DNA from: Cenococcum geophilum 1.58
Taxonomy: Eukaryota; Ascomycota; Dothideomycetes; Gloniales; Gloniaceae
Length of the DNA: 64,000 nucleotides
Reading direction: 5' to 3'
Assembly (NCBI GenBank): GCA_001692895.1
Contig: KV748217.1
Coordinates: forward strand, 744,001 to 808,000
Numbering within the stretch: position 1 is the stretch's first letter; each line of letters begins with the position of its first letter. Shown here in pieces: positions 10,949 to 43,500 of this stretch. The notes beneath the pieces were generated by a model. That model did not search any database, was not told where the DNA came from, and saw only the letters and a program-made list of their open reading frames with translations. Both the position numbers and the translations under genes were made by a program.

Positions 10949-10971
10949 CAGGAAAAAATTTACTAGCATTT
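10949..10971 (+). repeat. Left terminal inverted repeat of the giant element
   Basis: CAGGAAAAAATTTACTAGC then ATTT. The right end reads the same in reverse complement except C for T at position 16. Confidence 0.85.
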
Positions 10972-11080
10972 AATTTTACTTTTCTGCCATTTTAGCATTT
11001 TCTAGCATTTCTAGCATTTCCTAGCATTTAGCTGCCAAATGCCGCATTTAGAATTAAGTGTTAGCATTTAGCTACTAAGT
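10962..11080. repeat. Left subterminal AGCATTT repeats
   Basis: At least seven irregularly spaced copies of AGCATTT or a close variant, plus GCCAAATGCCGCATTT. The right end (43440-43490) has the opposite strand version (GCCAAATGCTGC, AAATGCTGG). Repeated subterminal motifs on both ends are typical transposase-binding sites in CACTA/KDZ-like elements; that role here is inferred. Confidence 0.6.
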
Positions 11081-11092
11081 GCTAACTATAAG

Positions 11093-11325
11093 ATTACTAA
11101 GCATATATAAAAGTATAAATTTCATAATTTTTATATTTTATATACACTTTATTAATATTACTAAGCATATATAAATGTATAATTTTTATAAATTTAATAT
11201 TTTATATAGGCTTTATTAATATTACTAAGCATATAAAAATATATAATTTTTATAAATTTAATATTATTAATAAAAATTTAACATTTTATATTTTATATAT
11301 ATTTTATTAATATTAGTAAGCATAG
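11093..11325. repeat. AT-rich tandem repeat, about 64-bp unit
   Basis: Units start ATTACTAAGCATATA: 11093-11156 (64 bp), 11157-11220 (64 bp), 11221-11311 (91 bp, expanded), then a partial unit from 11312. There is no coding. It lies between the left end and the 3' end of the SNF2 gene; 11326-11500 holds nothing I recognise apart from another AAAAAATTTACTAG near 11345. Confidence 0.85.
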
Positions 11326-11499
11326 GGGGCAGGGCGGCATTATAAAAAAATTTACTAGTATCTTAAATTAGGTTTATGCTAATTAAGTAATTTCGGCATT
11401 TAGCCGTATTTAGTTGTATTTTGCGGCTATATACTACACCGCTAATAACAATGCTATAATTTGCGGCTAAACGCCGCCTTAATAATAAAAGTGCTATAA

Positions 11500-12042
11500 G
11501 CTGCAGTATAATGCTCTCTTAGAAATAATAATACTAGAAATATTTTAGTTAACTAAGTTTACTATATACGCTACGCTACTACCTATAAGTTACTAGAAGA
11601 TACGTCCCTTAGCCTACATATACGCCACTATATAATTATAATAGGTTTCGCTATATAGCGGCTATATATAGTATTTGGAACTATTTACAGTTGCATTATA
11701 CTTTTATAATCGTTACCAGTATTAAATAGTCTTAGTGTCTTTCTTCTTGCCTTAGCCTGCTTTTAAGCTTAAATTAGCCTTCTCCTTATATACCAACTTG
11801 TGCAGTAACAACGTAAATTTAGTTAACTTTAATATCCTTTACTTAATACTTAACTTCTAATTAGCTATAATAGTACTATAGTAGATAGGCTTAGTTTATC
11901 CTTGTTAATCTATCTAAGTAAATAGTTACTTTACCTCTAAGAGCTTATGGCTTAGCTTAGCTATAATAGTATAATTTATACGCTATAAGTTAATAGACAG
12001 CCCAATTAATATAAAGGTGTAAAGTAGGATCTACTTAGAGTT
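11500..12042 (-). pseudogene. SNF2-type helicase, C-terminal part (helicase_C)
   Basis: Minus-strand continuation of 18003-21350 beyond the copia insertion. It includes ILIGLSINL and then LFT-ID-QG-TKPIYYS (11885-11950), which corresponds to SNF2 motif VI (QxxGRxxRxGQTxP) with Arg and Gln codons turned to stops or altered by RIP. A basic tail KKKDTKTI follows. The helicase C-terminal lobe is split by the copia element: the duplicated ATTAG (12043-12047 and 17998-18002) marks the join. Reading remains possible to a stop near 11505. Identification rests on motif VI here and Walker A in the other part. Confidence 0.75.
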
Positions 12043-12047
12043 ATTAG

Positions 12048-12228
12048 TGTTGGGAATAGGGCAAATTGCCGCCATATACGGCAAATTGCCGTCACGTGTT
12101 GCCGCGGCACTAGCGTGGTAAGGAACCTTAAGTTCCTTACCCTTCCCCTTTCTTGGAATAAAAACAATAACAATTATTATACTATCTACGAACCGTAGCT
12201 ACGTAATATCCCCCTTGTGTAACCAACA
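12048..12228 (+). repeat. copia copy 1, 5' LTR
   Basis: TGTTGGGAATAGGG ... TGTAACCAACA, 181 bp. It holds two GGCAAATTGCCG units followed by CACGTGTTGCC, a short palindromic repeat also present in the copy 2 LTR. Confidence 0.92.
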
Positions 12229-12334
12229 CTGATTAGTGGTTAACTTTACAGTTATACCACAGAACAGCTAGGTATTCACTAAGAAGAGACGAGCCACTAT
12301 ACTAGTGCTACTCGTGCTAAGGGAAGCTGTCTTT

Positions 12335-12505
12335 TAAGGTCAGAACTGGTCCTAAACCTTAAATAGAACTCTTCCACAAATCTAAGGATCTAAAGGCCAG
12401 AACTGGTCCTAAGCCTTCCCCAGATTACAGATTCTTGCGTCTATTACGTAGAATAATACGCTTTATAAGTCTTCGCGATTTAAGGCCAGAACTAGTCCTA
12501 AGCCC
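12335..12505 (+). repeat. copia leader: three copies of a GGCCAGAACTGGTCC motif
   Basis: AAGGYCAGAACTGGTCC occurs at about 12338, 12393 and 12482 (third as CAGAACTAGTCC), each followed by TAARCC. Two copies survive on the minus strand in copia copy 2 (about 55328-55400). It could be part of a packaging or promoter signal; only the repetition is observed. Confidence 0.75.
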
Positions 12506-12520
12506 TATAATCGCAAATAT

Positions 12521-15500
12521 ATGTCACAAACGCGTACTAAACAACAATCCCTATACTACTAATATTCCCTTCCTCCGAAGATATAACTATAGCCACTCCA
12601 AATAACTGGAGAGACTCCTTACTACTAGGGGTAGCTATATACGCGAAACTTATCGATAAAGATTAGGACGCATTTACCTTTAATGTAATAACCTATACTA
12701 TAAAACAAGTTAACGGCTTTCTCCTATACTATATTCTATTCTACTAAGATAGCCACTACGCCGATTTATAGTTATGGGAATACTTTAGGGAGGATTTTAT
12801 AGGATGGACCGCCGATACCTAGGCACTTGGCAATGTTAATATTATTTAGGATTTTTAAGACTCCCTTTAAAGGAATAGGGTATACGTTATTAAGGACGGT
12901 AACCCAATTGCTAGTAATATTTACGCCGTTCTTACTAGTATAGAAGAACCAGTATAGACGGAAGCTAAGATTATACGTTAACTACGGAAACCTAAAACCA
13001 ACCTATATTCTTTGGAAGGCAACTTTAATTTGGAACAAAACCCCTAGAACGCTACTCTCCTACCTAAAGGTGCTCTCCTACCTAGAGGTGCTCTTCCTCT
13101 ACCTTTACTACCTCTAACTCCTCTATCCTAGCCAACCGATAAGCCTTTATTTTAAGAAGTCACAAATCTAATAAAGGTATATTTGGACGAAGAGAAGAAG
13201 TTTAGAGGAGAATTGTATAATATACTCAGAGCAAAACTACAGGTCTTTTATAACTGCTATAACAAGGTTAGAATTTAACGCCACTAGTTCTATTATGCTT
13301 TCTCTATTATATTAAAGGGATAGGCGGTAACGTTCTATTACGACTATATCGCAGGTAAAAACTATAGCTTTAATGTAATGCTTTAGCTTACTAGAGCCTA
13401 CTTCAAAACCAACAAAAACCGCCAACTCTATATGTCCGAATGGCGGGAGACTATATTCTAGAGAGTTATCGCTTCTAACCCAATAACGACTCGCCTAAAG
13501 TGTCTTTAACTACTCTTTAATAAACTTTAAAAAATCTAATATAGTCTTACTAAAACCTACTAAAATAAGAACAGTCTAAGGGACCAAGTTATCTTAGCAT
13601 GCCGTAGCGTTCCTAAGTATAACTTGGCGCTATATAAACCTATAAATATATTTAAAGGAGTATATACTAAACTACGCTCTACTGTAGGCACTATAATACA
13701 AATATAAGAACCCCAACAATTCTATACTAAAAACCCTATTTAAACCGGGATTCTAGACTAATATAATTATAACTAGACTAATTAAATATATAGTGGCCGG
13801 AGTAGGGGATATAGTAAAGGGTACGATTAACGTTAACTATAAAGCAATTATGGAGGTCCTTGTGGAGGTTCATTTCGGAACAACCGTTAAAAGAAGTACT
13901 ACGTTTATAAGAAGCCAAATTACTAGTTAAATAGACACTCTCTTAACGAGCGAAAGGAGGTATATAATAAGTTCCGACAGAGTATAAAAAACGTCGGAAA
14001 TTGTAAGGTCACTACGGCCTACTTCTAAAGCTTTTTGGTCCAATATAAAGGCATAAAAGACCTTAAGGATAAGGTTAATAAGGCCGAATAGCTCCTTATG
14101 GATATAGATATTAAGGACTACTCTCCCAACTAATACTTTACTAAATATAGTAAGGTAAATGGCACACAAACCGTCGCTATCCTTAATAACTAATCTACGT
14201 TCCATTTTATCACAAAGTTAGATATCTTTAATAAGCTAAAGGAAAGTTCCGCGTTCTCCTTTAATAACAAATACTCGGCAAACGTCTTCTATAGTATTAT
14301 ACCAGATACTGGAGCCGCAGAAGTATCTACAGTAGAAGAACCTTAAGTTCGAGCTCTTTAATAGCTTAATAGCTCTGTTTAAATCGACTAATTAATGGTA
14401 GGCTAATATACAATTTGCTTCGGTAAGGGTACTATAATCTCTTTTAGTATAATTAAGGTCCAAACCCTATTAGGATGTATTACCTTCTACGTTATTCCCA
14501 CAAATACCCCGTTTCTATTCTATATCCAAGATATAGATAAATTAGGCGTTAAGCTTAATAACCTTAAGAATATGCTTATTTAGGGAGACAATCGGGTGCC
14601 CGTTATACGTAAGTGGGGTTACCCTTAGTTGCTCCTCTAATAACCAGAAAGGAGCGTTGTTTAAAGTTACTTAACTAAGTTAGAGCTACGTTAACTACAC
14701 CGTCGTTTTAGCTACCTATCCGTTCACTAACTGCTTAGGGTTCTTTAACGAGCAGGTTATAAAGTCAAGGTTAAGGCAATTAAGTATCTTATAAAGTACT
14801 ACTATTACTGCTAAATAAACTAGAAGTCCCCTGGCCGATTTAAGTTTACCCTTAAAGATAACTATAACTTTAACTTCTGTATCATTATTAATATTATATA
14901 TCTTAACGGTAAGCCAGTCCTCTAAGCTGTTAACTTATTAACCTCCTTTTAAGCCACACGTTTCTTAAGGGATATATTAGCTAAAAACGCATAGGATACC
15001 CTTTAGTTATACTAGATTAATATCTACCTAGAACCCCCTAATTAAATTATTTATAACGCAGGAAAAAATTTCTTATCTATAGAGTTCTGATAATAAATAA
15101 AGGCAATGGCAATTAAGGTTAAGGAAGTCCTTATTAAGGCATATAATAGTATTAAAAAAGTAGAGTGATATTACGCGCCATTACGCCGCGTATATAAGAT
15201 TATCTCTTTAGAACTAAAGGACGCTAGCGAAGAACTTACCTTATAAATAGCTGTTAAAGCTATTAACGATTCCGCTGGCCTGGATGGACTCATACCTACG
15301 TTGCTAGTCTTTGGCGCCTACCCTTAAATAACTAATAATTCTCCACTATCTCCCTCTATTGTGCAATAAGCTAAAGCTATTCGCAAAGCAACGAAGGAGG
15401 TATAACGTCTATACGCTACGCGCCAGGTTAATGACGTATTAGAAATAAGAAATAGCCTAAACACCTTAACTACGCTTAATCTGCCACTCTAATCTAAAGT

Positions 15501-17460
15501 ACGGGTATGGCGTAAAAAGGGAGGATAGTTAGGCCCACATAAACTCATTATAATTAATGGTTAAACTTATACTCTTTAGATGCCCCATAGACCTACTTAA
15601 TTCCGTTTAACCGTTATTAGGCCCTATTATAAAGATAATAGTTCTAAGCCTTTACAGGATGCTCTAAAAGATACCCTAGAAGATGCCCTAGAGGAGAACC
15701 ACAATTAACGTGCCCTAGAAGGCGACTGTAATCCTAATACAATTGTAGTAGATATGCCGCAACTATGACGCGGTAGAGGTCGCCCGAAGGGATCACGAAA
15801 TCGCCAACATCTTATTAATTTTGAAGAGCAATTCGTTGCTGCTATAGAGAGTAGAGTTAAGTTATTAATGGCCTTTATAATAGCTAAAGAGAAGGCTAAC
15901 TTTAAGCTCGCAAAATAGCTCTAAAAGGAAGGTTATATTATAACCCCAGGAGCTCCTTTCCAAGCATCTAACAAGCAGGAGATTAACGGTCTTATCACAA
16001 GAGGAGTCTTTAAATTTAAGAAATATAACCCTACTAAGTTCGATGGAGTTCGCATCTTTAAGTTAAAAATGGTCAATAAGATTAAGGGCAAAGCTACTAA
16101 CGCCCTATTTAAGAAATTAAGGCTTATCATCTAAGGTTACAACAATAATAGCAAAGAGATGATTCTTATATAATCTCCCACGATTTAACGAGCTAGTTAG
16201 CAAGTTATTGTTATATTAGCTCCCTCCTTAATAAAGAATAGAATGGCAGTTTATTTACAAGATATTACTTAAGCCTATACCTAATTAGAGACGCACCTTT
16301 AGCGCTTAATATTGGTATACCTTCTAGAGCAAATTCGCCACTAGTATCCTAAAGACATAATTATAGTTATGCTTAAGCCATTATACGGAATCGCAGAGGC
16401 AGGAACTTATTAGTGGGCTACTTACAGCAAGCACCATAAAGAGAAGCTTTTAATAACTACTTCTACATTCGATCCCTACTTCCTTATTATAACTACAGGA
16501 ACTCTATTCGGAATTGTTGGCATACAAACTAATAATATAATTATCTTAAGAGACAACCAATTCTTAGCTCTTAAAGAAGATAAGCTAGTAAAGGCAAATC
16601 TTATAGCAAAGCTAAAGGAAAGACTTAATTTAATAACACTATTGCTCTTTAATAGATGTATCCTTTCTATAAATAAGGATTCCATTGCTTTATGCCAGAA
16701 GGGTTAAGGCAAGAAGATTAACGTTGTTAACATTAATTCTCCGAAATAAGAATACGTAGAATAACGCGCTTATAGGGCTTATGTTACTTCTATCTATTAA
16801 CCTAAGGCTTCCTTTAATCTCTCTATTACCGCCTAATACTAGGAACTAACTAAGGATAACGTTTTTACTCTAAATAAGCGCCTTTCCTGGCAGATAAATC
16901 ATCTTAACTGAGGGCTACTCTATATACCTATTAATCTCCCCACCGCCAAGATCTTTATATTTATTAATAAATTGTTCGCTAATAATAAAGATTTTAGCTC
17001 CTAGTTAGGATATAAGATTATTATCGCGAACGAATCTACTAGAGAGAATGACTTTATAATCTATAGTAACCTTATCTATTGGAGCTTAACTAAGAGTAAA
17101 CGCGTTACTTAAAGCGTTCTAGCGTTAGAGATATATAGAATAGTTAGCGGAGTTAATATAGTAATTGTAATTGGAACTACCCTTAAGATAATTACGGATC
17201 GACTTAAAATTCCTACTATTCCTATAATTGTATGCACTGACTTATACTCCCTCTATAAGTGTTTAGTTAAGCTTGGCACTATAAAGGAGAAGCGTCTTAT
17301 AATTGATATTATAGCACTTTAGCAATCCTACAAGCTTTAAAAACTCTTTAAGATTTAATAGATTAATAGCTAAGATAACCTAGTAGATGCGATAATAAAG
17401 GTAAACCCAAACAAGGCACTAGAGACATTCATTAATATAAATACTCTACATATATAAGTT
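12521..17460 (+). pseudogene. copia copy 1 gag-pol remnant
   Basis: Plus-strand remnant from the gag ATG to the RNase H end. The gag carries a low-complexity stretch of repeated 'CTCTCCTACCTARAGGTG' units near 13045-13100. A protease motif, a GAG-pre-integrase/integrase block, copia-type reverse transcriptase and RNase H follow in that order. Broken fossil. Opposite-strand open frames at 13927-14205, 15933-16130 and 16476-16685 are shadows of it. Confidence 0.85.
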
Positions 17461-17504
17461 AAAGGTTAGGTTAAGAGGGAAATTTAAAGAAGTTAAGATC
17501 TTAT

Positions 17505-17670
17505 AGAACTTTAACCGCCGGTCGAAGTTATCTAATTGGTTAGATTCTTGCTAAGAGCGCCGCGCCTAATTAATTCGGGTGGCGGTATAGAGTTCTGCTA
17601 ACGCCATTCGTTAATCTAGCCAATTAGGATTTTCCATNCCCGGNATNAAAAATNGCNATTNGCTNGCTTA
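17505..17670 (+). repeat. Shared 3' cassette (copia copy 1)
   Basis: Begins GAACTTTAACCGCCGGTCGA and ends in a long hairpin: AGCCAAT ... GATTTTCCAT against ATGGAAAATC ... ATTGGCT (several bases undetermined here; the stem is clear in copia copy 2 at 52090-52160). It aligns along its length with 47275-47431 in gypsy-B. Confidence 0.85.
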
Positions 17671-17816
17671 CTACTAGCGCCTNNGCGGCCCACTCGTCTT
17701 CGCGTTAACCCCCTAANACCCTTCCTCTTTTCCTTCTTCCCCTTAGCTTTATACTTTTGTATAGTAGCAATCTATAGGTGTTTGTAGATGGTAACTATAA
17801 AAAGAAGAGTTGCTAG

Positions 17817-17997
17817 TGTTGGGAATAGGGCAAATTGCCGCTATATGCGGCAAATTGCCGTTACGTGTTGCCGTGGCACTAGCGTGGTAAGGAACCTTAA
17901 GTTTCTTACCCTTCCCCTTTCTTGGAACAAAAACAATAACAATTATTATACTATCTACGAACCGTAGCTACGTGATATCCCCCTTGTGTAACCAACA
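17817..17997 (+). repeat. copia copy 1, 3' LTR
   Basis: 181 bp, TGTTGGGAATAGGG to TGTAACCAACA, followed by the ATTAG duplication. Confidence 0.92.
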
Positions 17998-18002
17998 ATT
18001 AG

Positions 18003-21000
18003 TGTTAAAGGTTTACCTAGCCTCGGCCTTCTTAATATTGGACATGCCGGCTATATAGCAGAGCACCTTATTTTTACCGTATTTTTTATATAGCCTATTA
18101 AACTAATAAGCTAGTATAAGAGGTAAGCGAGTGGTAATAATAATCTTATACGCTGAACTATCTGTTCGTTTTTTAATATAAACGCAATTATAGATTTTTT
18201 TAGCTTAAAAGAACTTTATATTCTATTAAAAATAGCGGTTAAGTATATTGGTGAACTCCTTACTAAGCGGGTTAGTAGTCTACTTAGCGATAATTAGGTC
18301 CTTAAGTGTGCAACTTTAAGTTTTTAGGTGTTTATTATTGGACTTATTAGACTTATTGGACTTAATTATAACAGGGGTGTACTAGTCCTAGTATTAGACA
18401 ACCTAGGCTACGCTTGCTACCGTTTTCGCGTTGGTATATAACTTAGCTTAGGTAAGTTTCGGTATCTTAGGTTTAGTATTTAGATTACTGCTATCTTCCT
18501 CCTATATAGCCAGAAGTTCCTTATATTGGTGCCTCTGCTCTATTCTCACTCGGTCCTCTATAGCTATAATTATAGCCGCCTTAGTATTATTAGGGTTGGC
18601 CTATAATATAACTAATTTAAGATAGCTATTCTTTGGGATAAGCTTTTACTAGTTAAACCAGAGTGTTAACTCCCCTCTATATATCTAAAACGTTAGAATA
18701 ACTATGCGGAAAAATATAGCCAGTTCGCCGAATTTTCTATTTACTATTACTCTGGCTAGGTTAGTCTTCGCATCCTTATAGAGACGGTTAAATTCCTTCT
18801 TCTTTAGCTAGATGTTTTCTTCTTTAAGCTTAAGCAGTACTTTAAACTCCGTTCCCTTTAGCTTATTAGCTTCTTTTTACTCTAACCTCTTTAATCCTGC
18901 TATAATAAACTGCATTAGTTATATTAGGTTTCCGTTATTAGGCATACTAGACACACCCTATATAGTAGGGCTGTAATTATACGTAATGCGGTACTCCTTA
19001 ACTATATCCTTAATAAACGATATTAAGACTCTACCGGTTACGTCTAGGTGGTATTTATCCTAAAGGATACGCCTAATCGTATTACACTCTTTAATTTCTA
19101 ATATATTTTAGGGGATTAGCTATTTAGGTGTTTCTATATATTAGTTTATATAGTAATAAACCCACGTATTAGTCGTGTGGTAATATAATTTCGCGTAGTA
19201 ATTAGAAGGAATTAGGTTAAGTATCTTAGCGCTAATAGTTCCGTCGCATTAGGGGTAAAGCTATAATTATTCTTAAACCTGGCTTTACCCTATAGGTGTA
19301 ATAGGAGAGCCTTGCTAACTAGATATATGTTATTATTATTCTCCTATTATTCCTTATTGGTCCACTTAAGAGCCTTATAGATTTGCGGCTATTTATCCTT
19401 TTTTAGTTTACTAAATATCTTAACTTTATTATAGCTAGGGGCGAGAATTGTAATCTAGGGCGGGTTAGGGCGCTTTATAATCGCGCCGTCTTATAACATT
19501 ACACTCGCGTCCTTTAGGAATCTTAGTAGGCCTAGGGTTAGCGTAAGGATGACTAAGCAGCCTCGCTATAGGTCTATAGGGTACAGCTTCTTAGAGTTGT
19601 CTTTATAGTAGCATATAATCGGCTACTTTACTACCTATAGGTATTTTAAATCCGGCGGATATATCTTAGGTAGGTAGCGGGTTACGTCCCTAGCAGCTTA
19701 GGCCTCTTAAACGTCCATTATATTCTAATAATAAAAGTAGTTTATTAGCTATTAAGTAATTATTTATACAGTTTTACCCGCGCTAGGTTTATCTGCATAA
19801 ATGCCGCCTCTTTTAATTATCCTCTCTTGCTTAAATGCCTAAGCTATATATACTACTTGGTATAGGCTAAATTTAAAGCCTAATACAAGGCCCTAATTAG
19901 GGAGTTCGATTAGGGCGGTCTTAAAGAGTGCTTTTAATAAGATAAGTGGGAAATACTCTAAAATAAGTAGAAGATCCGCCTCCGTTATATACATTAGTGC
20001 GCTATTTAGGTTATTCTTCCTAGCCTTATAAAGCTGGGCTAAGAAAGTTTACTAGTTAAGTTCTTCCTCTGCGTCTATATCTTAGTTGTTATTATTAACC
20101 AAATCCTTGTCTTAGTCGCTATTATTAACTAAATCCTTATCTTTATCTCTACTCTCCGTATCCTTAAAGTTAGTGTAATATAGAAACTAATTATTGTATC
20201 CACCGGCACGTTATAGCAATTTACTGTCCTCTATGGTAATATCTTAAGGGATATTAACGGTTAGTAATATAGCAGTAGGGTTGTCTATTATATCGTCAGG
20301 CTAGTATATACTGTTAGGTTTGGTAATAAATTGCGGCGATTTACTATTATCTACGGTAATTTCTCTAGTACTACTGTTATTTGCTAATATAGGCTTATAG
20401 GTAAATAGGTTACGTCTTCCCTTTACTAATCGCCTTCTGCGCATAACTGGCTTGTTATTACTGTTTTTTATAAGGGTACTTACTGCTAATTCTGCTTAAG
20501 GGCGTTTCCTACTTCTATTTAGGTTGGCCTTGCAACTATTTAACTTCCTAGGCGCGGCTAGCTCGCTTTTCTTATTCTCCGCTAGGGCATTTATTACCGA
20601 TCTTAGTTAAAGCTACTTATTATATCTACTTAATTTAGTCTTACTATTATCTAATTTCTTATATCTAATAGACTCGCCCTTGCTATCTTTATTGGAGCTA
20701 TATACTGCTAATCCTAAATAACTCCGCTTCTTGCCTTCTCCTAGTTTACTCTTACCGCTGGCCTTACACAGCGTTAGGACTTATTAGCTATCTTTTACAC
20801 TATATCTATCGCGTCTAGGCGCCTTAGATTTAATAGTTAGCGGTATATTATTAGTAGCAGCGACTTAGGAGTTTAAGCTAGGAGGTAAGAGTAATACTAT
20901 AAGCACGGCCTCCTTTGTGCCATTTCGCGCTAAGAGCTATAATAAGTATACCCTCTAACCGTATTATAAGGTTTTTATATCTCCACAGCGATATATAGAT

Positions 21001-21350
21001 ATTTTTTTGGGTAGACCGTTGATGTTAAGCTCTATATAGGCTTGTAGTTCCTCCTATAGCTTACCTAGAGCTATATATAGGTTTTCGCTCATTAGATATA
21101 AGACTTAAACTACCCTAACTATTAACCTACCCGTTAAGCCTATAGATTAGATTTTAATCTTAATATCTCCTATATTAATTGCGTTGCTCGCCACTAAGGT
21201 TACTAGCTAAGGCGAAGGGATACCGTATAGTAGGGTTGTAGTAACGTTTATGGGCTATATCGCATATAGCAGCTAAGGTGGCGTTGTCTTATCTTATGCT
21301 TTAGTCTTTAGGGGTAATATATATTTATATAAAGCATGCCCACTCTTAAA
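18003..21350 (-). pseudogene. SNF2-type helicase, N-terminal and ATPase part
   Basis: Minus-strand coding region of the giant element. Walker A reads GGIYADKPSAGKTV (19765-19812), preceded by LVLGFKFSLYQVVYIA and AFKQERIIKR, the usual SNF2 'LRPYQ ... W' entry. About 100 residues on, ITILAPSYNKVKIFSKL matches motif Ia (ILAP). I could not identify a clear DEAH box. The N-terminal 450-odd residues are polar and basic, with a tandem DKDKDLVNN/DQDKDLVNN repeat (about 20100-20160) and a Lys/Arg-rich stretch near 20450-20600. Stops are TAA/TAG in Gln positions. SNF2 proteins are DNA translocases, often acting on chromatin; a role in mobility or silencing escape is inference. The start is uncertain; I place it near 21350. 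Confidence 0.7.
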
Positions 21351-22149
21351 GGTACTTAGTACCTTCCTCACACGATTGGAATAAGCACTTCTTATAATTT
21401 TTAGGATTACCTGCAATTTCTAATCTAGTAGAGTATTAGTAAATTATAGGAGTTACTTATAAAACTCCTTAACGTACCCTTTTTTTATTATTGTAGAGTT
21501 GCCGCGATATATCACGTACTTAGGCTTAACTTTAATCGCAATATCTTTAACCTTCTCTTTTAGTCTATTATAGTTTTCAATGCTTATTCTAAAGCCTTAG
21601 GTAATATCTACATCTTTAATCAGCTTTAGGTTTGCCTTATACCACGCGTCCGGCTTTACTTATAGTTGCGTTATTATTAAGTTGCTTATTTAGTTAGGTA
21701 CGTATAATATTACAGCATATATTAAGTAGAAGGTAACTATTAAAGTAAAAGGGCTTTATACGGTGGCTGGCTAGCGCTAAACTAGTATAACTCTAGTATT
21801 AGACGTAGTTAGAGGTTAGTTATAGGAGAGATAGAAGGTAGGATAAGTGAAGTTAATTAAGAAGAGGTAAAGAGGTAGATCTTATAATTGCCCGCACGTG
21901 CCCATATAGAGGTAAAATTGGCTATAGTTTGCTGCTACTAGTTAGGGTAAATATAGCTAGACTTAGTACTGTGCAGTTAAATAAGGGTATAATTATATAA
22001 CTTATAGGGACTACCCTACCTAGCCTATTTAGGGCTAGGTGGCGGTTTAATACCGCTAAACTCTTACAGTTTTTAATATAAGCAATTTATTAAGTGCCTG
22101 CAAAGGGGTAATTAGTTATTACAGTATAGTAGACTATAGGAGGTTATGG
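21351..22149. other. Gene-poor stretch between the SNF2 gene and the LINE
   Basis: AT-rich, RIP-type sequence. Some minus-strand reading may extend the SNF2 N-terminus, but I see no domain or convincing start. Nothing else was recognised. Confidence 0.5.
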
Positions 22150-22475
22150 GCGTTACTATATTTCTTATTATTATATAGAGTTGGTATATATACGCGCCGC
22201 TAGAGTTAAAGGGCTGGCTTACGTCTATATATACGGGCCCTATCGCTATAAAGTGTTTACTATATAATAGGTGGTATTTCTAGTAGATGGTGATGTATTA
22301 CACTTATTATAGGCGTTACTATATTTCTTATTATTATACAAAGTTGGTAAATATGCGCGCTACTAGAGTTAAAGGGCTAGCCTACGTCTATACGTGCGGA
22401 CTCTATTACTATAAAGTGCTTAGTATATAATAGGTAGTACTTCTAGTAGACGGCAACGTATTATACTTACTTTAT
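22150..22475. repeat. 163-bp tandem duplication
   Basis: Two head-to-tail units, 22150-22312 and 22313-22475, each starting GCGTTACTATATTTCTTATT. They differ by about two dozen substitutions, mostly transitions. The second unit ends exactly where the LINE target duplication begins. Confidence 0.9.
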
Positions 22476-22489: not shown

Positions 22490-23274
22490 AACACGTAAGA
22501 ACGCCGGGAAACTATCTACCGCAATGCAATACTGGTTGGACTAACGCTGGAGAGGCGAATGGGAGTCGAAGGTACAGAGGCTGGCTCAGGCAAGACGAAC
22601 CCAAGCCATAGCATAGTTAACGCCATGGGGGGTAAATACCCAAGGGCTCCGAGAAGGCCTAACAAAGGCAGAAAACACAATAGCAATACTCTTAAGAACA
22701 GGAATAATAGGACTAAAAGATTGGCTTTACTAGGTGGGTGTCCTAGTAGGTAGCCCGAGATACAAATGTGGCTGGCTAAGATAGACACCAAAACACGTAA
22801 TACTGCTATGCCCCCTACACACCAATTAAAAAACAATGCTCTTAGCAGCTAGCATAGAGAACTATAATACACTGCTCTTAATATAAAAAGGCCTTAAGGC
22901 GGTCACCTAGTGGCTTATTAGTTAAAATGTGCTAAATCAGTTCTGGGTTGCAAGGGAAATGGTAATAAAAGGTAAGGGGGCAAGTAGCAGGTGCCCCCTA
23001 GTAACTCTACAGTAGTAGAGTAATAGTTTGTAATACTAGCGCGTCCGTAGGCTTATTACGGCAGCAGTGGTTCCTAAGGAGGTTAAACAGTAAGGTAGTA
23101 GAGCACTATAGGCGACTCGTAGGCGCTAAGTAGGCGAGTCCTAAAAGGCGGGGAGATGGATTACGGGGTTTTCTCATTTTTCTTAAATAGAGTTTTCTCC
23201 CTATATGTAAATAAGGAGTAGTCCGCGTAGGCCCAATAGGGATCCAAATCGGACGTTAAGCAATGAATTATTAT
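22490..23274 (+). mobile_element. 5'-truncated Tad-like LINE
   Basis: 785-bp insertion flanked by a 15-bp duplication TAATTACTAGTGTTA (22475-22489, 23275-23289), which marks target-primed insertion. The 5' part is the end of a LINE ORF2: the reading from about 22617 contains GLREGLTKAENTIAI, RTGIIGLKDW and a Cys/His motif CGW ... TPKHVILLCPLH, ending QFWVARE, all typical of the C-terminus of fungal Tad-clade polymerases. A 3' UTR of about 260 bp ends GTTAAGCAATGAATTATTAT. The 3' 230 bp is repeated at 49935-50168. Some in-frame TAA/TAG exist, but RIP is lighter than around it. Confidence 0.85.
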
Positions 23275-30013: not shown

Positions 30014-30018
30014 TTATA

Positions 30019-30229: not shown

Positions 30230-30459
30230 TTATACTAAGCTCTCCCTACCTTGCCTGGGAAGGCCTTAATAATATCCCACCCTAAAGAAACTTCGTCTGT
30301 AACGACGCATTAATACGCTATACTTAGACACCAAAATAACTCTATATTGCCTGGGAAGGCCTAGATAATATCCCACCTTATAAACCAGACAGGACTAGAC
30401 CTATACCCCCAAAATTAAAACTAAAGCGTATAATACCGACGAACCTTAGAAAGCTAACG

Positions 30460-33400: not shown

Positions 33401-35685
33401 CCTTTATACGGTAAAAGGAATCTAGTTCTTTCTTAGCTTTTACAACTTTTACCACCGGTTTATCTGTGACTACAGAATTGCGGCAAAACCTCTTATATAA
33501 CTAACTAGGAAGGACACTTCTTTTATCTTTAATAATAGCTATATAGAAGCCTTTAAAGAGATAAAGGATCGGCTTATCTCTTCCCTAATTTTTTGTTACT
33601 ATAACCCGGACCTTAAATTAATGCTAGAAACGGACGCCTCTAATAGGGTTATAGCGGGAATCCTATTATAGTTATATCTAGACGGCAAATAGTACCCTGT
33701 GGCTTTCTTCTTAAAGATAATAGACCCGGCTAAGTGTAACTATAAAGTATATAATAAAGAAATACTAGCTATTATTTAATTACTCTCCTAATGGTGCGTA
33801 GAGCTTGAAGGTATAAATTTCCGGATTAAGATATATACAGATTATAAAGCCTTAGAGTACTTTATAACTATAAAGCAGCTTACTAGACAACAGGCCCAGT
33901 AGGCCAAAATACTCTCCTAATTCTTCTTTACGATTATATATTATTCTAGTAAGCAAAACTCTAAGGCTAATGCCCTAACCCGAAGAAAATAAGACGTAGG
34001 ACTCTAGGATAAGCTAAAGACCTAATATTGGACGCGCGCCCTCCTCTATTTAGAATAGCTTAACCTACGGATTCTTAAGGAGCTAAACTCCTAGTAAAAC
34101 AAGCTAGCACTAATAGAGGAGTCCTTAGATAAGCTAATAGGGCTAATTAACCGCCTCCTAACTATAAACCGCACGGCTGACGCCTTAAGGGCCCTCCGCG
34201 AATAAGCCGTAAAAGGAGACCCCAATTTTAAGATGGAAGAAGGATTGCTCCTATACTAGGAGCGGCTTATAGTCCCTAACGTTAATAATCTATAAACTAA
34301 ACTAATCCGCGAAGCTTATTACTAAGTCTCTATAGTATACCCTAGCAAGAATAAGACCCGTAAAATTATTAACTGCCGCTACTACTGGCTAAGAATAGTT
34401 GCGGATATTAATTAATATATATGGAACTGTGAAGACTGCTAGAGAGCTATAATCCCATAGGATAAGACCCTAGGACTACTTAAGCCACTCCTAATACTAG
34501 AGCGCCCTTAGTAGTATATCTCTATAGACTTCTATAAACTACCTAGGGACCGTAACGGATATAATATAGTTATGGTTATAGTTAACCGCTTTAGTAAACG
34601 CCCGTTCTTAATTCCCTATTATAAGAATATTAATACTAAAGAGGTAGCCCGGCTATATATCTATTACGTCTACCGAATCTATAGACTATTAGATACTATT
34701 GTGTCTAATTATAGGCCATAGTTTATATCGGCCTTCTAAAATAAGTTTACCTAGATCCTAGGCATTAAGCTAAAGCTTTTTATAGCTTATTACCCCCAGA
34801 TAGACGCTTAGACAGAGATTATAAATTAATACCTGGACTAGAGGCTTAGGCCCTTTATTAACTATTTCTAGGATAACTGGTCTAAACTACTACCCTTAAT
34901 AGACTACGCGCAAGCAACCTTACCCTATAACTCTATAGGGTTTACCCCAATTTAGCTGGAAATAAAATACTTACCCCATATAAGCTTTAACTAGAAAAGG
35001 CTAAAAGAACCCTAGACTATATAAGAAAAGCTATCTTATACTAAGGCCCAATAGTACGCCAAACAATTAGAGGAGGCTTAGATGGTAGCCCGTAAGAACC
35101 TAAAAAAAGCTTAGAGGTTAATAAAATAGCAGGTAAATAAACACCGTTAAGAGCCCAATTTTACCCCTAGCGATATAGTCTAGGTTATAATAAGGAATTA
35201 GAAGACCAAACAACCTAGCTATAAGCTGGACTACTAGATAGTAGGACCGTATAAGGTTCTTAAAAAGATAGGCAACTTATATAAGATAAAGCTCCCAGAT
35301 TTAATTAGGGTTTACCCTATCTTCTCGCTGGATAAATTACGGAAAGCTATAAACAACCTATTGCCTAGACAAAAGAACGAGCCTCCCCTACTAGTTTAAG
35401 TAAACGGTAATAGTAAATAGGAGGTTAATAAAATATTGGCCTATAAGATAGTACGGGGAACGCTAAAATACCATATCTAATGGAAGGGCTACGATCCTAA
35501 CCTAACCTGGTACCCTATGTGGAACTTTATAGGCTGCCCCCAGAAGCTTAAAGAATTCTATAACTAATACCCTAATACGCCTAGGCCCCTAAAGTACCTA
35601 GACAAATGGATAAAATGCTAGTATAATAAAGACGATAAGTTACCGGAAGAATATAAGGACAAAAACGCCCTAAAGCCCTAATACA
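30460..35685 (+). pseudogene. gypsy-A copy 2 gag-pol remnant
   Basis: Plus-strand gag, protease, reverse transcriptase, RNase H, integrase and chromodomain remnants, colinear with 4034-9260. The C-terminal chromodomain, recognisable by its hydrophobic/aromatic pattern near 35450-35560, groups it with chromoviruses, whose integrases target heterochromatin marks. Broken fossil. Opposite-strand frames at 30799-31008 and 31302-31505 are shadows. Confidence 0.85.
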
Positions 35686-35747
35686 GCTATCTGCCAAATT
35701 CTGCTATATTCTGCCGTTTTCTGCCAGTACCATAAAATATTAGATAT

Positions 35748-35810
35748 CTAGGAACTTCAACCGCCGGTTGAAGTTATCTGATTAGTTAGATCCGTGCTAA
35801 GACTTTTAGC
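35748..35810 (+). repeat. Shared 3' module, short form (gypsy-A copy 2)
   Basis: AACTTCAACCG-C-CGGTTGAAGTT is a perfect 23-bp palindrome (one central base), followed by a tail close to ATCTGATTAGTTAGATCCGT. It is the best-preserved copy of the module's first part. Confidence 0.8.
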
Positions 35811-35991
35811 GGCTACTCTTTCTAACCTAGTGCTTCCACTTAGCCTACAATTGCCCTTTATACTTAGTCTGGATGTACTCTTATCCCCTTTATCTCCTTA
35901 TCTTATATTTTATAATCCCACGTTTATAAGCCTAGTGCTACCCTATTTCTAACTAAGCCTAAGGGCAGGCTTTCTTTAAAGAGGGGGGTAA

Positions 35992-36202
35992 TGTAACGGC
36001 GCTATCGCATGTTACCTGCCAAATTCTGCCATATTCTACCGACCTATAATTAGCCCGCCTAAAGCTAGCGCCTTAGCGGCTTACCCTATATATTTGTTTA
36101 CATCGGTCCTGGCAACCCCTTTTCCTTCTCTTTAGCTTAGTATCTTTGTAATACAGCATTCGTTCAAGCTTTGGTTCAGAGGCATTTGTTTAAGCCGTGA
36201 CA
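35992..36202 (+). repeat. gypsy-A copy 2, 3' LTR
   Basis: 211 bp, TGTAACGGCG to GCCGTGACA, preceded by the purine tract and followed by TTATA. Confidence 0.93.
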
Positions 36203-36207
36203 TTATA

Positions 36208-36730
36208 TATAGTTAAGCTAGGATAAACTTTATAAGTTTGCGGCAGCCGTATACCCCCTTTCCATATTTACTATATAGTTAATGCTAAGCCGCCCTAGTA
36301 CCTTTATCTTCTTATATATATTTAACTATATACGGGCTAGCATATTCTATATAGCCTTGTGTACCTATAGCGTTAGTGCCTTCTTGTATTCTACTACCTA
36401 ACGGATAACTTTCTAAATTGCCTACTTACGCAGTAAATTGTTTAGTTATTTGCGAAATAAAACGTATAGGATGCTGTCCTTAATAATAACCTACTTAAAA
36501 GTCCGCTTAATAGTATTAAGTCTCTCCACAGTAATGCCTAAGCTAGTAATAAGCTATATATCTTTTTATGGGTCCGTAGCGCTTGCAGAGTTATACTATG
36601 CCGTATTTACGGTATACTGCTATTATATATCGCGTCCTATTATAAAAAACAGTCTAGTATCCTAAGTAGGGAATAGTAGTGTTTAGAATCCTATGCTTAG
36701 TATAACAGAGAGGCGGCGCGATATTAGTAA
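36208..36730 (-). pseudogene. Unidentified minus-strand coding remnant (part 2)
   Basis: Sequence on the other side of gypsy-A copy 2, probably the upstream half of the minus-strand region at 29012-30013. Reading such as ALLWRDLI and RLYRICQPVYS gives stops at Gln codons. A plus-strand open frame at 36438-36665 is hydrophobic and more likely a shadow. No family was recognised; 36731-37080 upstream shows no gene. Confidence 0.3.
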
Positions 36731-37079
36731 TAAGTAGAGTCTCCTAGCCCAATGTAACGCAATTTAGCGTAAATTAGCGTAAAATATAACAGGTTGTGCT
36801 ATCTAGCGCGTTAGTGTCCATAGACATCGCCATACTTTTACTATACTTCTCCTATCTTAACTAGCTTGTAATATAGCATAAGCTATAAATACTACTTTAA
36901 ACATATGGTTCTATATAGATGTTATTTTTAGCTTCCTTTTAACTAAACTATAGTAAATTATAGCTTAATGCGGCAATTTATAAATAAGCTCTATTTAGCG
37001 GTAATATGGAAAGTATAGGACTAAAGTAAAAAGTATAGGCGGTTTAACCTATTATAAATAATATTGTTTAAGATAATAG

Positions 37080-40000
37080 AAACGGAAGAAGGGTAGATAT
37101 AAGGGCGTTAATATTAAAGAGATAAACGATAATGTACCCTTACGCTATTAAAGCTTAGAGGAGTATTAGATAGCCCATTATAGGGCTAAGCTAGAGTAAT
37201 ATAATAAGTGGCCACTTACACAATATATGGACGACGATGCACTATTATGCTATTAAACCTCGGAAGGGCATTATATAACTAATTATAAGGCTAAATTGGA
37301 GTAAGGTAATAAGTGGCCACCTATATAAGCTGTAGGCGATAATATTGTTAATAAGCTAAATAATAAGGCTGCGGATGTGCATTATAATAATAATTCCGTA
37401 ATATTTAATAGGGTATATAACCTAGCGATAGTTAAGACCGATTGGTAAACTTTAACTGGAATATCTATAGATGTCTTTTAGACTAAAATATTTGAAGAGG
37501 CCACTGGCCGCGCTATAGGAAAGCCTCTGGGACGGAACTAAAGAAATCTATAAACTATGGACGATACTATGGTAGTATACGACATTATACCGCGTATTAA
37601 GTGTACTGGCAGTGCACTAGATAAGATACCTCCCCTATTTTATCCGTTTAGTAGTAAGGCAGAATATATATAGGTTTTGTAATAGGTAAGCTATAGGACT
37701 TCTAACCGTGCTATTAACGAGTAGTTTAACGATATTAGGCTTTAAGGAGTATTTACTAACCATTTTTCTTACTAGAGTGCTAATAATATTAAAGTAAAAC
37801 TATTTTTAAAATAGATGCAATCTAAGAGTAATTAACTATAGTAGATTAAAATAATTGTAACTGTAAGGGACTAGTAGCTGCTAGTACGTTACTAAAATAC
37901 TTTAAAGATTATATTTTTCCTTATTAGTTACGGCCCTTTCTAAGGAGATATAACTTTCTTGCTAGTAAGGTAGTATTTATTAATAGGAATAAGAATATAT
38001 AATAAGCTTAATATAGCAGACTGGTAGTAGGAGACGTAAGAGCAGCTACTACTTAGTGTAATTGTAGTGCTAATTATATTAGCTAGCGATAAGACCCAAC
38101 TAATATAATATACTGGTGGTAAGAAAGTATGGCCGCTTTATATTTTAATTAGAAATATTAAACTGCGCGTTTGATAATCCGTAAATTGACTAGCCCTATT
38201 ACTGCTTATATACCTCCTAGTTTATATACCTAGTAACTAAATAATATAACTAGCGGTGTAATATAAGACCCTTACGGCTATCCTTAAATGTATACTTTAG
38301 CGACAGCCCTACTACTAGTATAGTTATGCTAATAATGCCTACAGCGTTAGAGAAAGCTAGTAAAGAAAGAGTATATCTCCTATACGCGGATAGCTAGGAT
38401 TAATACTACTTTCTACTTCTAGCTGTATTTATAGCTAATTATAAAGAATAGGTTACGCTTATAGGTATTAAAAGTGGCTGTAAATATTTAACTTGTTATA
38501 TATATAAAAATAAATAGCATAATCTAATAACTGCTATTTAGCGACTGTGGCCGTTTTATATATATTAATTAATAAAAGACCAAATATAAATATAGTAGGA
38601 AGGTTATAATACTAATAAGAAGGATAACTTAGATTATATTTGGCCGTTTTGTAACTTTATATAGGGCTATAATCTATCTAATATCTATAAGATAATGGCG
38701 CCTAATTTCCTATATTAGGTGCTTAAAGGCCTTACTAGTAAATATTTTATGCACTAAATTAAGGGGCTTATATAAAGTAAAATATAGGCCGGAAAATATT
38801 GGGGTCTTAATATCCCGCGTATAGATAGTTACAGCTAGGAGATATTAAATATTAATGTACTTATTACTACCCGCTTCGTATAGGTGGAATAATTTACTAA
38901 TATAATAGTATGGGATAGCTAGATAAATGTCGGCTAATAAATAGGAAAGATATATAAATCTTTATTACGACAATTAGTCCCTACTATAGCACCCTTACTA
39001 AAATAGAATAAAGGCGCTATGCTATTTATCTGGGCGTTTATAGACTTTACTATACTATCTTAATATGTATTACACGATAAATCAACTATCCGGTATCTAG
39101 TAGTAGCTATTTATAAAATAGAAAAGATAAAGGATATATTTCTTCCGTTTTAACTAAGTAAAATAGGATTACTATACTTTAATATTCCTAAGCTATATAC
39201 TATTACCTATTATCTAGAGAGTATTTAGTGACTAGAAGTAATTAGAGGTATAGATATAGAGTATTTAGAGTAAGTATATAAGCTATAGAAGGCATTTTAT
39301 TATAGAACTAATAAATGGAATAACTATAAAGAGCAGATGCTATAATATAATACTATATATTTTAATACTATGCTTTAAAATAAACTTAAGCTATAGGCGT
39401 TAACTAATATAATTAATATAGTAGACTTAATGAGCGTAATATAGATAATATAACTAGGCCCTATAGTTAATATATACGCATATCGCTTATATATATAGAA
39501 CTTTAATAACTATATAACTTAAATACTTTAAGACTAGAGAATTAATATATCTATCTAGCGTATAGTTAAGGAGGTATAGCGCTAAATAGAGATTACTAAC
39601 CTTATATCTAAACTAGCCCCCTTTATAAGGGAATGCTGTAAGTAGATTAATAGAATCTAGTAAATAGACTGGGACGTTAACTAACTAGAGGCTAATAATA
39701 ATTGGGTATTAAAGATGCTCTTAAGTATCTATTACAGCGTTATATACTATATTCACTTTAGAAAGGATACCACTAATACTAATAAGCTTAATAAGGTGTT
39801 TGCTTAATATACCCCGTTATAGGCTAATACCAAAGCCCCCTGCTATAATGCTGTAATAGTATAAAAATATAAGCGGGTAAATAATAGCCTCCATAGTAAT
39901 AAAGTAGGGAGGCTTTATCTACTACTTATAATCTAGGATACTAGGCGATTAGATAGTAAGAGTAAATACCTAAAATATGCCGGTGCGTTGGTAGAGACCC

Positions 40001-40190
40001 TCTAAGTTTATAACGGTAGTAAGATTAATATAAAAACTGGAATGCTTAGAGTATAGAGTATAAAGCTATCTAATAGCAGGATAAAATGTACGCTAGATAC
40101 CCTCTAAATATATAACATTAACCATATTATGAGGCCCATCTTATTTATACTAATAGATATTAACGTTATAGACTATTTTTTTTATAAATA
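37080..40190 (+). pseudogene. KDZ-superfamily (Plavaka-type) transposase
   Basis: Plus-strand coding remnant in one main frame. Family blocks in order: YPFSSKAEYI (about 37640), ASDKTQLIQYTGGKKVWPLY (about 38083, holding the first catalytic Asp), ILIRNIKLRV, SGCKYLTCYI (about 38470), MAPNFLYQVLKGL (about 38700), LFI-AFIDFTILSQYVLHD (about 39020), FNIPKLYTITYYLESI (about 39180) and IDIEYLE. These match the order in fungal Plavaka transposases. An N-terminal duplication, HYRAKLE-YNKWPL and NYKAKLE-GNKWPP, is visible near 37180-37325. In-frame TAA/TAG lie at Gln positions. Within the giant element it is the only transposase and so the likely mover. Confidence 0.82.
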
Positions 40191-40199
40191 ACTATAGTG

Positions 40200-42640
40200 A
40201 TTGGGATATATATAATACTATATATAATAAAGATTTTAAGCGAATAAATAAGGTATAGGTTAATGTATATGCAAAGAAATAGGCTTATACTAGGCGGTAA
40301 ATAAATATAACTTAGTTAAAATAGCGGTAAGTTATAACTAGCGGCGCCGGATTGTAATAAAGGGGTAGATTACTATAACTATAATAAACTAAAATATAAT
40401 ACTACTATATATTACCCTCTATACACTAGCTACCCTTTATATCCTATACACTGTACTATTTACCTTAAGAGTAAGTAAATATTGCGAGGAACTAGGCTTT
40501 TATGCGGTATAGAAAAAATATTACGTAAAGTAGGACTTTATACTATAGTAAGGCAATCTAATTGCCCTATTATAAAGCTTAATAAATAGTTAGGCCGCCC
40601 TCCTAACTTATTATTATAAGTTTATTAAAGCTCCTTTTTATATACTTAGTAAGAAATGCCTAATTTATATTATAAAAGTTAACTAGGTTGTTATTTAAAG
40701 TATATTAGGTATAAGACTCTAAACTATCTAGCGTCTTTTAGGGAAGTAAGGTGTGTATAATAGCTAAATAGTTCTACTAAACTGATATACTTATCCTCTA
40801 CCTATCCCGTAGAAAAGTAAATAAAGATACTATAAGTTAAGTAGTAGCTTCTAAGATAATATTAGGCTCTATACTGTAACTATTTCTATTAAAAGGTAAG
40901 GCTATTATTAATGTGCTATAGTATAACCTATTATTATTAATTTTAATAACGTTATCCTAACGGATAGTCCCGTTTTTATTAGATAAAAGCTTATAAACCT
41001 TAAGCAACCGCAAGATATCTAAAACCTACACTTAAAAGAAACGCATATATTACTTAAATAAATAACCGCTATAGGATAACTTTAGACGACGTATAAAGTA
41101 GCTACTTAGCCTAATTAATATAAAGATATACGGTATTGTTTAGACATGTCTTATTATATAAGTAATAATAGGCTCTATATCTAAAGAGCTCTATCTTTCT
41201 CCCTAGCCGGAAATAAATATAAGCGGTTTAAATACACTAATAAAGCAGATGTAGAAAGAGGTAATTACTATTATAGACCGTTATAAAAACCTAATAAATA
41301 GAGTATTAAGTATGCTACCGGGGCCGGCAGCACGTAAGGTTCGCGGTCCTTAGATTTAGTAGTACTATATTAACTAATTTTCTCGCTATATAACCAGCTT
41401 AGCGTATTTTAGTATTATATAATAAATATAGTGCGTAATACTGTTACTAGGAGCTATAACTGCCTTAAACTAGATACTAAGGCCGTAGTAAAGGAAGTAG
41501 CGGAACTACTTAAGGATAACTGCTTTACGCTTGGTGGCCTAGTTAGTACTCTACCTTTTACTATACCTAACTAACTAAGGCTAGGATGGAGAGATAAGAT
41601 TTAGGGCGCTAATTATTGCACATTATCTTAAGCGCGTATTCTTTAATACTGGGCTAAGGTTACTTGCCCTTAATAAGAATAGTACTAACCTCTTTTTGCC
41701 TATTATAGCTAATACAATATAGCTTATATGCGTGGCGATTTAATATGCTTTTAAGGACTATAGAAGTGGAATATAAGTTATTTATAAGTTTAAAGCCAAC
41801 GCTATAATTATAGGTAAATCTATAGGAAGCCTTTTACTATACTTACTAAAGCGTATTATAGATAGTTAGGAGTAACTATAGAATATTTAGAAGAGTTACT
41901 AACCTAAGCGTAATAAAAGGCTATATAGGCTACTTCTATAATAAGTTAATAAGATATAAAACGTAATTAGAGATAAGATGCTATAGACTTAATAGGTAAT
42001 TAGTAATTTGTTTAAGGATATTATAGAAGATCTAGAGGAACTAGATCCTAAGTATAATAATAGGTTTACTTGATAACCGTATACTGTAAGTGTAAATATA
42101 TAATATTATATTAATCGCATTATAACGTTATATCGCGATACTCGCTATATACTATAGCACTTTACTACTATTTCCTATGTTATAATATTGCTCTATTTTA
42201 ATTATTATATATAGGCTAATAAAAATAATATAATAGGATAACGGTAGCCTAGCGTATTTATTATAAAGAATAAATCCTAAAACTATATATAAGGTTTTCT
42301 TCTTATAGTATACTAATAAGATAATTTTAATGCTATATAATTATAATATTAACGCTATTTAAGCGCGCCTTAAATAAATTTAAGGTGATAATAAATAGGA
42401 AATAGGAAATAATTACTATATCTTATAGTATACTTTCGCCGGTAAGTTTAAGGTTATAGATATTATAAATAGTGCTATACTAAAGGATATAAAGGCCTGC
42501 CTATAGAGTAGAGATAGACTAGTAATACTAGAATTTACTAATAAAGAGGATAAGAGTAGAGAAGGTAGTGGAATAGATAGGGAAAATAATAGTAAAAATA
42601 ACGGCGAGAATAAAGATAATTAGGGGTTTAATAGTATAGT
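40200..42640 (+). pseudogene. Unidentified ORF downstream of the KDZ transposase
   Basis: From about 40600 one plus frame reads coherently for some 600 codons, with stops only at Gln-type codons. Segments include SMLPGPAARKVRGP (41314), LLLGAITALN, LVLYLLLYLTN, FRALIIAHYLKRVFF (41620), DYRSGIQVIYKFKANAIIIG, NVIRDKMLQT and DLEELDP (42030). It is helix-rich and mixed-charge, without a catalytic motif that I recognise, and is not a TET/JBP or tyrosine recombinase by eye. It could be a second transposition protein. The interval 40190-40600 is poorly resolved. Confidence 0.45.
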
Positions 42641-42777
42641 ACTACTGTCGCGGCGGGACTTATATAAATATTAAACTTAAAATAGTAGGTTAACTAAAGG
42701 GCGTTATTAGGCGTATTAAGGTTATACTATACTACTATTAGGTTAAAATATGTTCTTTATATAGTATATGCTAGGCG

Positions 42778-42950
42778 TATAGAATAAGTAGAGAATATTA
42801 ACTATATAAAATAAGTAAAGGGTACTAACTGCGTAGAATAAGTAAAGGGTACTAACTATATAGACTAAGTAAAGTATACTAATTACGCGGAATAGGTAAA
42901 TACTACTAACCGCGTAGACTAAGTAAATACTATTAAGTGCGCGGAAAGAG
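42778..42950. repeat. 27-bp minisatellite
   Basis: About six units of the form GAATAAGTAAAGGGTACTAAC plus a 6-bp linker (TATATA/TGCGTA/CGCGTA). Units vary mainly by transitions. It lies about 0.6 kb from the giant element's right end. Confidence 0.85.
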
Positions 42951-43095
42951 CAACGCTTATCTATTACTTAAAGTAAGTAAGATATATAAAATGTATAAGG
43001 GGGGTATTATATATTAATTATGTATTAAGTATAGAGAGAGCTTAATAGAATAAAGGTACTATTTTCCTAGGTAGCTGTAAATGCGTAATTAGCTG

Positions 43096-43402
43096 TACCG
43101 CGTTGTTAGATGCGGCAGTATACTATACCGCGTTATTAGATACGGCAGTATGCTATACCGCGTTGTTGGATATAGCAGTATACTTACACCGCGTTGCTAG
43201 ATACGGCAGTATGCTACACCACGTTATTAGATACGGCAGAATACTACACCGCGTTATTAGATACGGCAGTATGCTTACACCACGTTGCTAGATGCGGCAG
43301 TATACTGCACTGCGTTATTAGATGCGGCAGTATGCTATATCGCGTTATTAGATGCAGCAGTATGCTGCACCGCGTTATTGGATACGGCAGTATGCCGCAC
43401 CT
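43096..43402. repeat. 30-bp CpG-rich minisatellite
   Basis: Ten head-to-tail units close to TACCGCGTTATTAGATACGG + CAGTATGCTA, some with one extra base. It starts at 43096 and ends about 100 bp from the right inverted end. The open frames seen through it (43103-43291, 43194-43520) simply translate the repeat and are not genes. Confidence 0.92.
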
Positions 43403-43477
43403 AAGTCGATACTATACGCTACACGTTACAGTGCACGGATTACGCATTTGGCCGCCAAATACCGCCAAATGCTGCGA

Positions 43478-43500
43478 AAATGCTGGTAAATTTTTTCCTG
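43478..43500 (-). repeat. Right terminal inverted repeat of the giant element
   Basis: AAATGCTGGTAAATTTTTTC then CTG, the reverse complement of the left end with one difference, followed by ACGT at 43501-43504. Just inside it are GGCCGCCAAATACCGCC and AAATGCTGC subterminal motifs. Confidence 0.85.

Follow-up and report, generated by a model that had tools for sequence, protein, structure and literature searches.

A ~20-kb Plavaka-type DNA transposon with predicted SNF2 and UPF1-like helicase genes in Cenococcum geophilum

Plavaka transposons belong to the CACTA/EnSpm-related CMCT clade and have no sequence similarity to Kyakuja, Dileera or Zisupton (Kojima 2025, PMC12730594). According to the same source, they are recognized by target site duplications of 2 to 3 bp and by C(2)C and H(3-4)H motifs preceding the last catalytic Glu. 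In the literature examined, the only accessory gene described for fungal Plavaka is TET/JBP, a precedent for transposon cargo that is thought to counter silencing or methylation (PMC12730594). The genome of Cenococcum geophilum is described as 178 Mbp in size with 75% transposable elements (PMC5816826). The present analysis concerns 64,000 bp of this genome (the window; positions 744001-808000 of contig C42, KV748217.1), within a searched assembly of 177.2 Mb in 162 contigs. Between positions 10946 and 43503, the window carries an element with CGTCAGG...CCTGACG ends, three nested inserts and about 19.6 kb of native sequence. It is a member, killed by repeat-induced point mutation (RIP), of an abundant family of cut-and-paste DNA transposons of about 19.6-19.8 kb, in which a Plavaka transposase travels with two predicted helicase genes, one of SNF2 type and one of zinc-knuckle superfamily 1 (SF1) type, and with a DUF6532 gene.

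Several described systems resemble this element in part. Like other Plavaka, including the TET/JBP-carrying PlavakaB, its family has the PF18759 domain, a 2-bp duplication, accessory genes and, in the open database relative P0003 of the transposase, the C(2)C and H(3)H motifs; relative to PlavakaA and PlavakaB as they are described, the element differs in its ends, its SNF2, SF1 and DUF6532 genes, its length of about 20 kb, and the lack of TET/JBP in scans weakened by RIP (PMC12730594). The 'Plavaka giant repeats' of Amoebidium share the great size, the scarcity of introns in the genes and the Plavaka transposase; however, by their description they reach up to 50 kb with tandem gene clusters and many tyrosine recombinases, and the passage on them names neither SNF2 nor SF1 and gives no ends (PMC11244446). 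AcademH and KolobokH are also helicase-encoding DNA transposons, fungi included, but they belong to other transposase superfamilies and carry DEAD and Helicase_C domains, and the passages on them name no pair of SNF2 and SF1 (PMC10799480). In the red alga Chondrus crispus, En/Spm (CACTA) families of 16-20 kb with 4-5 open reading frames (ORFs) are alike in CACTA type, size and extra ORFs, the comparison extending to published size and ORF number (PMC6431247). Searches of an open-licence library yielded no account of a Plavaka with both SNF2 and SF1. The element shows that Plavaka can be multi-gene transposons of about 20 kb that carry two predicted ATP-driven nucleic-acid motors at dozens of loci.

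The initial annotation, made from sequence alone, had proposed a transposon whose inverted ends agree at 22 of 23 bases, and this agreement was confirmed. The 15-mer CAGGAAAAAATTTAC lies at 10949 on the forward strand and at 43486-43500 on the reverse strand, and it occurs 84 + 82 times genome-wide compared to 0 + 1 for a reversed-pattern control. Among the distinct ends read, the bases directly before the 15-mer are C in 32/33, G in 33/33 and T in 33/33; the terminal repeat therefore begins CGTCAGG. By end comparison, it spans 10946-10971 on the left (forward strand, CGTCAGGAAAAAATTTACTAGCATTT) and 43478-43503 on the right (reverse strand, last bases CCTGACG). Besides the window copy with its three inserts, three sister copies align along the native length (C30:196539-216344, C11:2729590-2761998 and C24:496617-529451), and the copy on C30 lacks every one of these inserts, running uninterrupted for about 19.8 kb. 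When the native pieces of the four copies are joined, they measure 19.6-19.8 kb with a pairwise identity of 90%. Since each pair differs by 1,873-1,911 transitions and only 19-61 transversions, the four copies must have been nearly identical before RIP. Two full long terminal repeat (LTR) elements had been noted inside the window copy, and both hold: one at 12037-17997 (192-bp LTRs at 95%) and one at 30018-36207 (217-bp LTRs at 92%; same family as 3594-9780), each missing from C30. A third insert, a 785-bp repeat at 22490-23274, is not found at the corresponding place in C30, C24 or C11, which lowers the native DNA to about 19.6 kb from the 20.4 kb first estimated.

By virtue of the colinear sister copies and of linkage across the genome, the transposase, SNF2, zinc-knuckle SF1 and DUF6532 genes are seen to be co-mobile as one unit. 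The linkage was measured from four sets of matches. For the transposase region (query 36300-38300), the best 40 of 74 candidates were scored, and for the DUF region (query 41300-42600), the best 40 of 80 were scored near full length (55 rows). Both sets include the window, and each gives a lower bound of at least 40 genome places. The SF1 and SNF2 sets comprise the best 34 of 129 and the best 35 of 287 candidates, with the window's own copies outside both. Downstream of the 34 SF1 places and on the same strand, the transposase region follows in at least 22 (4-40 kb away), the DUF region in at least 24 (8-60 kb) and either one in at least 27, where chance would give about 0.004 transposase regions per place. 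Around the 35 SNF2 places, in the expected orientation, there is an SF1 gene in at least 20, the transposase region in at least 25, the DUF region in at least 27 and any of them in at least 33. The proposal that the genes move together is thereby upheld, and the separate occurrence of these genes elsewhere, named at the outset as counterevidence, is not what most of these places present. If all 40 scored copies were full length, the family would by simple arithmetic occupy about 0.8 Mb of the genome.

The same ends also bound much smaller elements. Eight elements of 1.5-2.6 kb (L021-L028) have both ends and subterminal stretches in common with the full element and look like non-autonomous derivatives coexisting with full copies. 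Hence, these ends can also enclose less than the complete set of genes, and the second form of counterevidence, ends that enclose only a small part of the segment, occurs to this extent beside the full copies. Several of L019-L028 also contain the left end internally, in additional inverted copies. L019-L020 is a 10.4-kb stretch (C29:946131-956535) bounded on each side by a left-type end.

The Plavaka-type transposase of the initial annotation is borne out by Pfam, which reported PF18759 in the frames of both the window and C11 and no other transposase family in either. The upstream stretch at 37881-38219 (forward strand) covers PF18759 positions 45-162 (E 9.3e-12; 1.1e-20 in C11). The downstream stretch at 38326-40297 (forward strand) matches residues 1-657 of P0003 and includes a second Plavaka match at 38335-38745, below cut-off in the window (0.0042) and at 1e-8 in C11. 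No splice sites joining the two stretches could be settled. P0003 is an open transposase fragment of 657 amino acids on a 19,995-base contig (source ena, 28 members) for which PF18759 is listed, and P0004 is a second transposase fragment of 516 amino acids (source jgi) at 77% to P0003. In P0003, CSTC at 54 corresponds to C(2)C and HAITH at 291 to H(3)H, followed by TEYSEQAHK; in C11, both His of the latter motif read Tyr. An AlphaFold2 model of P0003 from a two-sequence alignment was discarded for its pLDDT of 30.

Three features of Plavaka are thus found in the family: the PF18759 domain, the C(2)C and H(3)H motifs, and a 2-bp duplication, the last not in the window copy. The label KDZ (Kyakuja, Dileera, Zisupton) that had been attached to the transposase is rejected since the duplication is 2 bp rather than the 8 bp of Zisupton, Pfam reported Plavaka only, and Plavaka lies apart from KDZ in the published classification (PMC12730594). 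The termini given for PlavakaA (TGT..ACA) and PlavakaB (CATCA..TGATG) fit none of the 33 ends listed. Genome-wide, the best 123 of 266 Plavaka candidates were scored; none falls within the window's element, at least one (C55:108079) lies in a sister copy, and many resemble other Plavaka families. The best of the 123, at C30:1712561-1713541 (G000), has the full domain in one stretch with 230 bits and 5 stops, and is seemingly another Plavaka family.

Two helicase genes had been predicted at the locus, and both are supported by open proteins recovered in a protein search. The SNF2 gene lies on the reverse strand, with its 5' and central part at 17998-21674 (P0002 residues 1-1232; many in-frame stops) and its 3' end at 11755-12051 (residues 1230-1328), where the last few bases enter the LTR insert. 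P0002 has 1328 amino acids (source lgn, 12 members) and carries SNF2-rel_dom (2.6e-6) and Helicase_C (4.7e-6), both above cut-off; its matches in the PDB are weak (0.0024-0.0057). The zinc-knuckle SF1 gene (UPF1-like, AAA_11/AAA_12) occupies 24389-28298 on the forward strand and needs no intron. Its reading runs on to about 28.4 kb, and compared with the three sister copies it is missing 44 bp near 26728. P0001, its open counterpart of 1355 amino acids (source jgi, 13 members), has four zf-CCHC stretches and AAA_12 at 8.7e-20, both domains above cut-off, with AAA_11 below cut-off at 1.5e-4; against the PDB it matches UPF1 at 6.7e-13 over residues 1008-1223, the C-terminal lobe only. By domain criteria, the helicases of the element are predicted to be an SNF2 ATPase and a CCHC zinc-knuckle, UPF1-like SF1 helicase.

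Decay of the genes limits what can be read from the window itself. On six stop-masked frames of its native segments, Pfam found neither SNF2 nor SF1, so that the profile searches proposed at the outset succeeded there for Plavaka, while SNF2 and AAA_11/AAA_12 were seen through sister copies and open proteins. In read-through translations of sister copies, AAA_12 scored 1.4e-7 and 3.1e-8, and Helicase_C was weak at 0.055. One of the ORFs left unidentified earlier now carries DUF6532 (PF20149), on the forward strand at 41597-41803; this part of a further gene, known as a domain stretch only, scores 7.4e-4 in the window, below cut-off, and 8.7e-6 in C11, above it. The read-through of 24446-26650 gave no useful match in the PDB, motif scans across the four copies were mostly uninformative, and neither stop density nor TGA-free stretches delimited the genes cleanly.

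The RIP signature is strong. When the window is divided into 64 intervals of 1 kb, TA/AT is >=1.5 in 57 of them and (CA+TG)/(AC+GT) <=0.6 in 52; the stops number 73 in SF1, 81 in SNF2 and 50 in the transposase (38326-40182). Among the scored places, SF1 rows have 63-91 stops each and SNF2 rows 34-91. When the database proteins are compared to the four copies, C>T or G>A changes within the codon account for 97-99% of the amino-acid differences from P0003 (reverse control 0%), about 92% from P0001 (3.6-4.6%), 87-91% from P0002 (2.5-3.6%) and 69-71% from the more distant P0004 (6-8%). The first of these figures makes P0003 an almost un-RIPped form of this transposase family, and P0001 and P0002 belong to the family of the window element or to a close one.

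Insertion sites define the target site duplication. Outside the CGTCAGG ends, the 2-bp flanks are identical in 12 of 15 end pairs examined and consist of A/T only (TA in eight pairs, AA in two, and AT and TT in one pair each); with shuffled right flanks, the mean is 6.3 matches and the probability of reaching 12 is 9e-5. The short element L025 is inserted in a relative of the LTR element at 30018-36207 with flanks ...AACTA / TAGTATT..., and the window's uninterrupted relative has AACTAGTATT as the empty site. The duplication is 2 bp, mostly TA. ACGT does stand beside both ends of the window copy, as first noted, but it is rejected as a 4-bp target duplication since it consists of the repeat's CGT plus a neighbouring base; likewise, the search for further copies recovered the same ends and gene set and not the 4-bp duplications expected with them. 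That the window copy interrupts an LTR element, labelled there as gypsy and so a putative member of that group, was correctly recognized (LTRs at 2114-2303 and 47549-47738, 91.6% identical), and the same outer element is also interrupted by another LTR copy at 3594-9780. Its two halves were said to be otherwise accounted for; instead, L047, another copy of the interrupted element, has 168 bp between both junctions that are missing in the window (compared with 10428-10945 and 43501-43658). Most other copies with both halves listed have a gap of about 170 bp, and one of about 230 bp. Among genome copies of the interrupted LTR element, a search for a clean empty site matching the window insertion found none.

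Transposons of this group move by cut-and-paste through a DDE transposase. Here, the Plavaka-type transposase would recognize the CGTCAGGAAAAAATTTAC ends, perhaps together with the subterminal repeats, and insert with a 2-bp duplication. The SNF2 and SF1 proteins may serve the element rather than the host, most likely against silencing: with its chromatin opened by the SNF2 remodeller, the element could be transcribed and reached by its transposase, and the targets of the zinc-knuckle helicase could be element transcripts or RNA:DNA hybrids. Such a counter-silencing kit would be analogous to the TET/JBP enzymes on other fungal DNA transposons. Overall, a co-mobile Plavaka transposon with helicases that most likely counter silencing is the best explanation and a moderately probable one, with the roles of SNF2, SF1 and DUF6532 proposed by analogy. 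Countering silencing is favored over a direct part in mobility because the short same-ended elements have moved too, and because fungal transposons carry TET/JBP genes thought to counter methylation. A bolder form of this explanation, put forward tentatively, is that the CGTCAGG ends mark a third Plavaka lineage with its own two-motor kit, a non-TET solution to silencing that might have enabled a ~20-kb transposition burst in a fungus capable of RIP, until RIP took effect. Since open protein versions exist in public data, the chromatin remodeller as a transposon's anti-silencing device is directly testable.

Several observations weigh against this picture. No scored copy is open, and one database cluster was found per helicase; P0001, P0002 and P0003 are known as separate database entries. 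Among the best 40 of 74 transposase-region places, SF1 lies upstream in at least 22 and the DUF region downstream in at least 28, and the right-end 15-mer is near at least 13 of 40, counted from 100 of 166 end positions; these misses may be owed to the extent of the match lists or to broken copies. Pfam gave no Tet_JBP match in stop-masked window frames or scanned sister-copy frames, although RIP could hide one, as the window scans also missed SNF2 and SF1. Unequal flanks occur in three of the 15 end pairs, namely the window copy itself (TA/TT), C29 (TA/CT) and C2 (TA/AC). The window junction, with its unequal flanks and missing 168 bp, contradicts a simple insertion: either the event departed from a clean 2-bp duplication, or two insertions recombined later. 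Finally, the helicases might instead be carried passively or take a direct part in transposition.

As direct factors, SNF2 and SF1 would be part of the transposition machinery, making excision and integration of a 20-kb element possible by remodelling the ends or resolving strand intermediates. This is rather unlikely. The shared genes and gene order of the compared copies, the large size of the element, and the helicases known in Academ, Kolobok and Helitron transposons (PMC10799480) agree with it, but the movement of the 1.5-2.6 kb elements implies that the helicases are not needed in cis, leaving action in trans. Moreover, the main text of the Plavaka paper, in which SNF2 is absent and 'helicase' appears once, reports no such need in other Plavaka (PMC12730594). 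Less likely still is a chance capture of host SNF2 and SF1 genes that merely hitch-hike. Gene capture by DNA transposons is established, and the single protein cluster per helicase would fit, but both genes are full length with whole open frames in public data, and the great majority of scored SNF2 places (at least 33/35) keep another element part. A composite of unrelated repeats that merely adjoin in the window, suggested by its nested and RIPped state, is highly improbable, being contradicted by colinear same-ended copies elsewhere and by the genome-wide linkage.

The remaining features of the element are repeats. The left subterminal region (10980-11265) has TAGCATTT runs and a 64-bp tandem array at 11089-11265. 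On the right, there are 27/54-bp tandem repeats at 42780-42946 and an array of about ten 30-bp units at 43097-43395. A 163-bp tandem repeat (22144-22469) separates the divergent SNF2 and SF1 genes. Of the 785-bp insert, 234 bp recur at 49934-50167 with 94% identity, and the repeat is also present elsewhere within the C11 stretch at 86-87%. Palindromic stretches occur at 43652-43807, 1342-1772 and 51295-51732 (81-92% identity), and around the first of these the window's LTR element has about 145 bp extra relative to L047. The first 1 kb of the window shows little RIP signature; it includes an open stretch of 100 amino acids at 316-618 (forward strand) that, by eye, presumably resembles a Harbinger-type nuclease.

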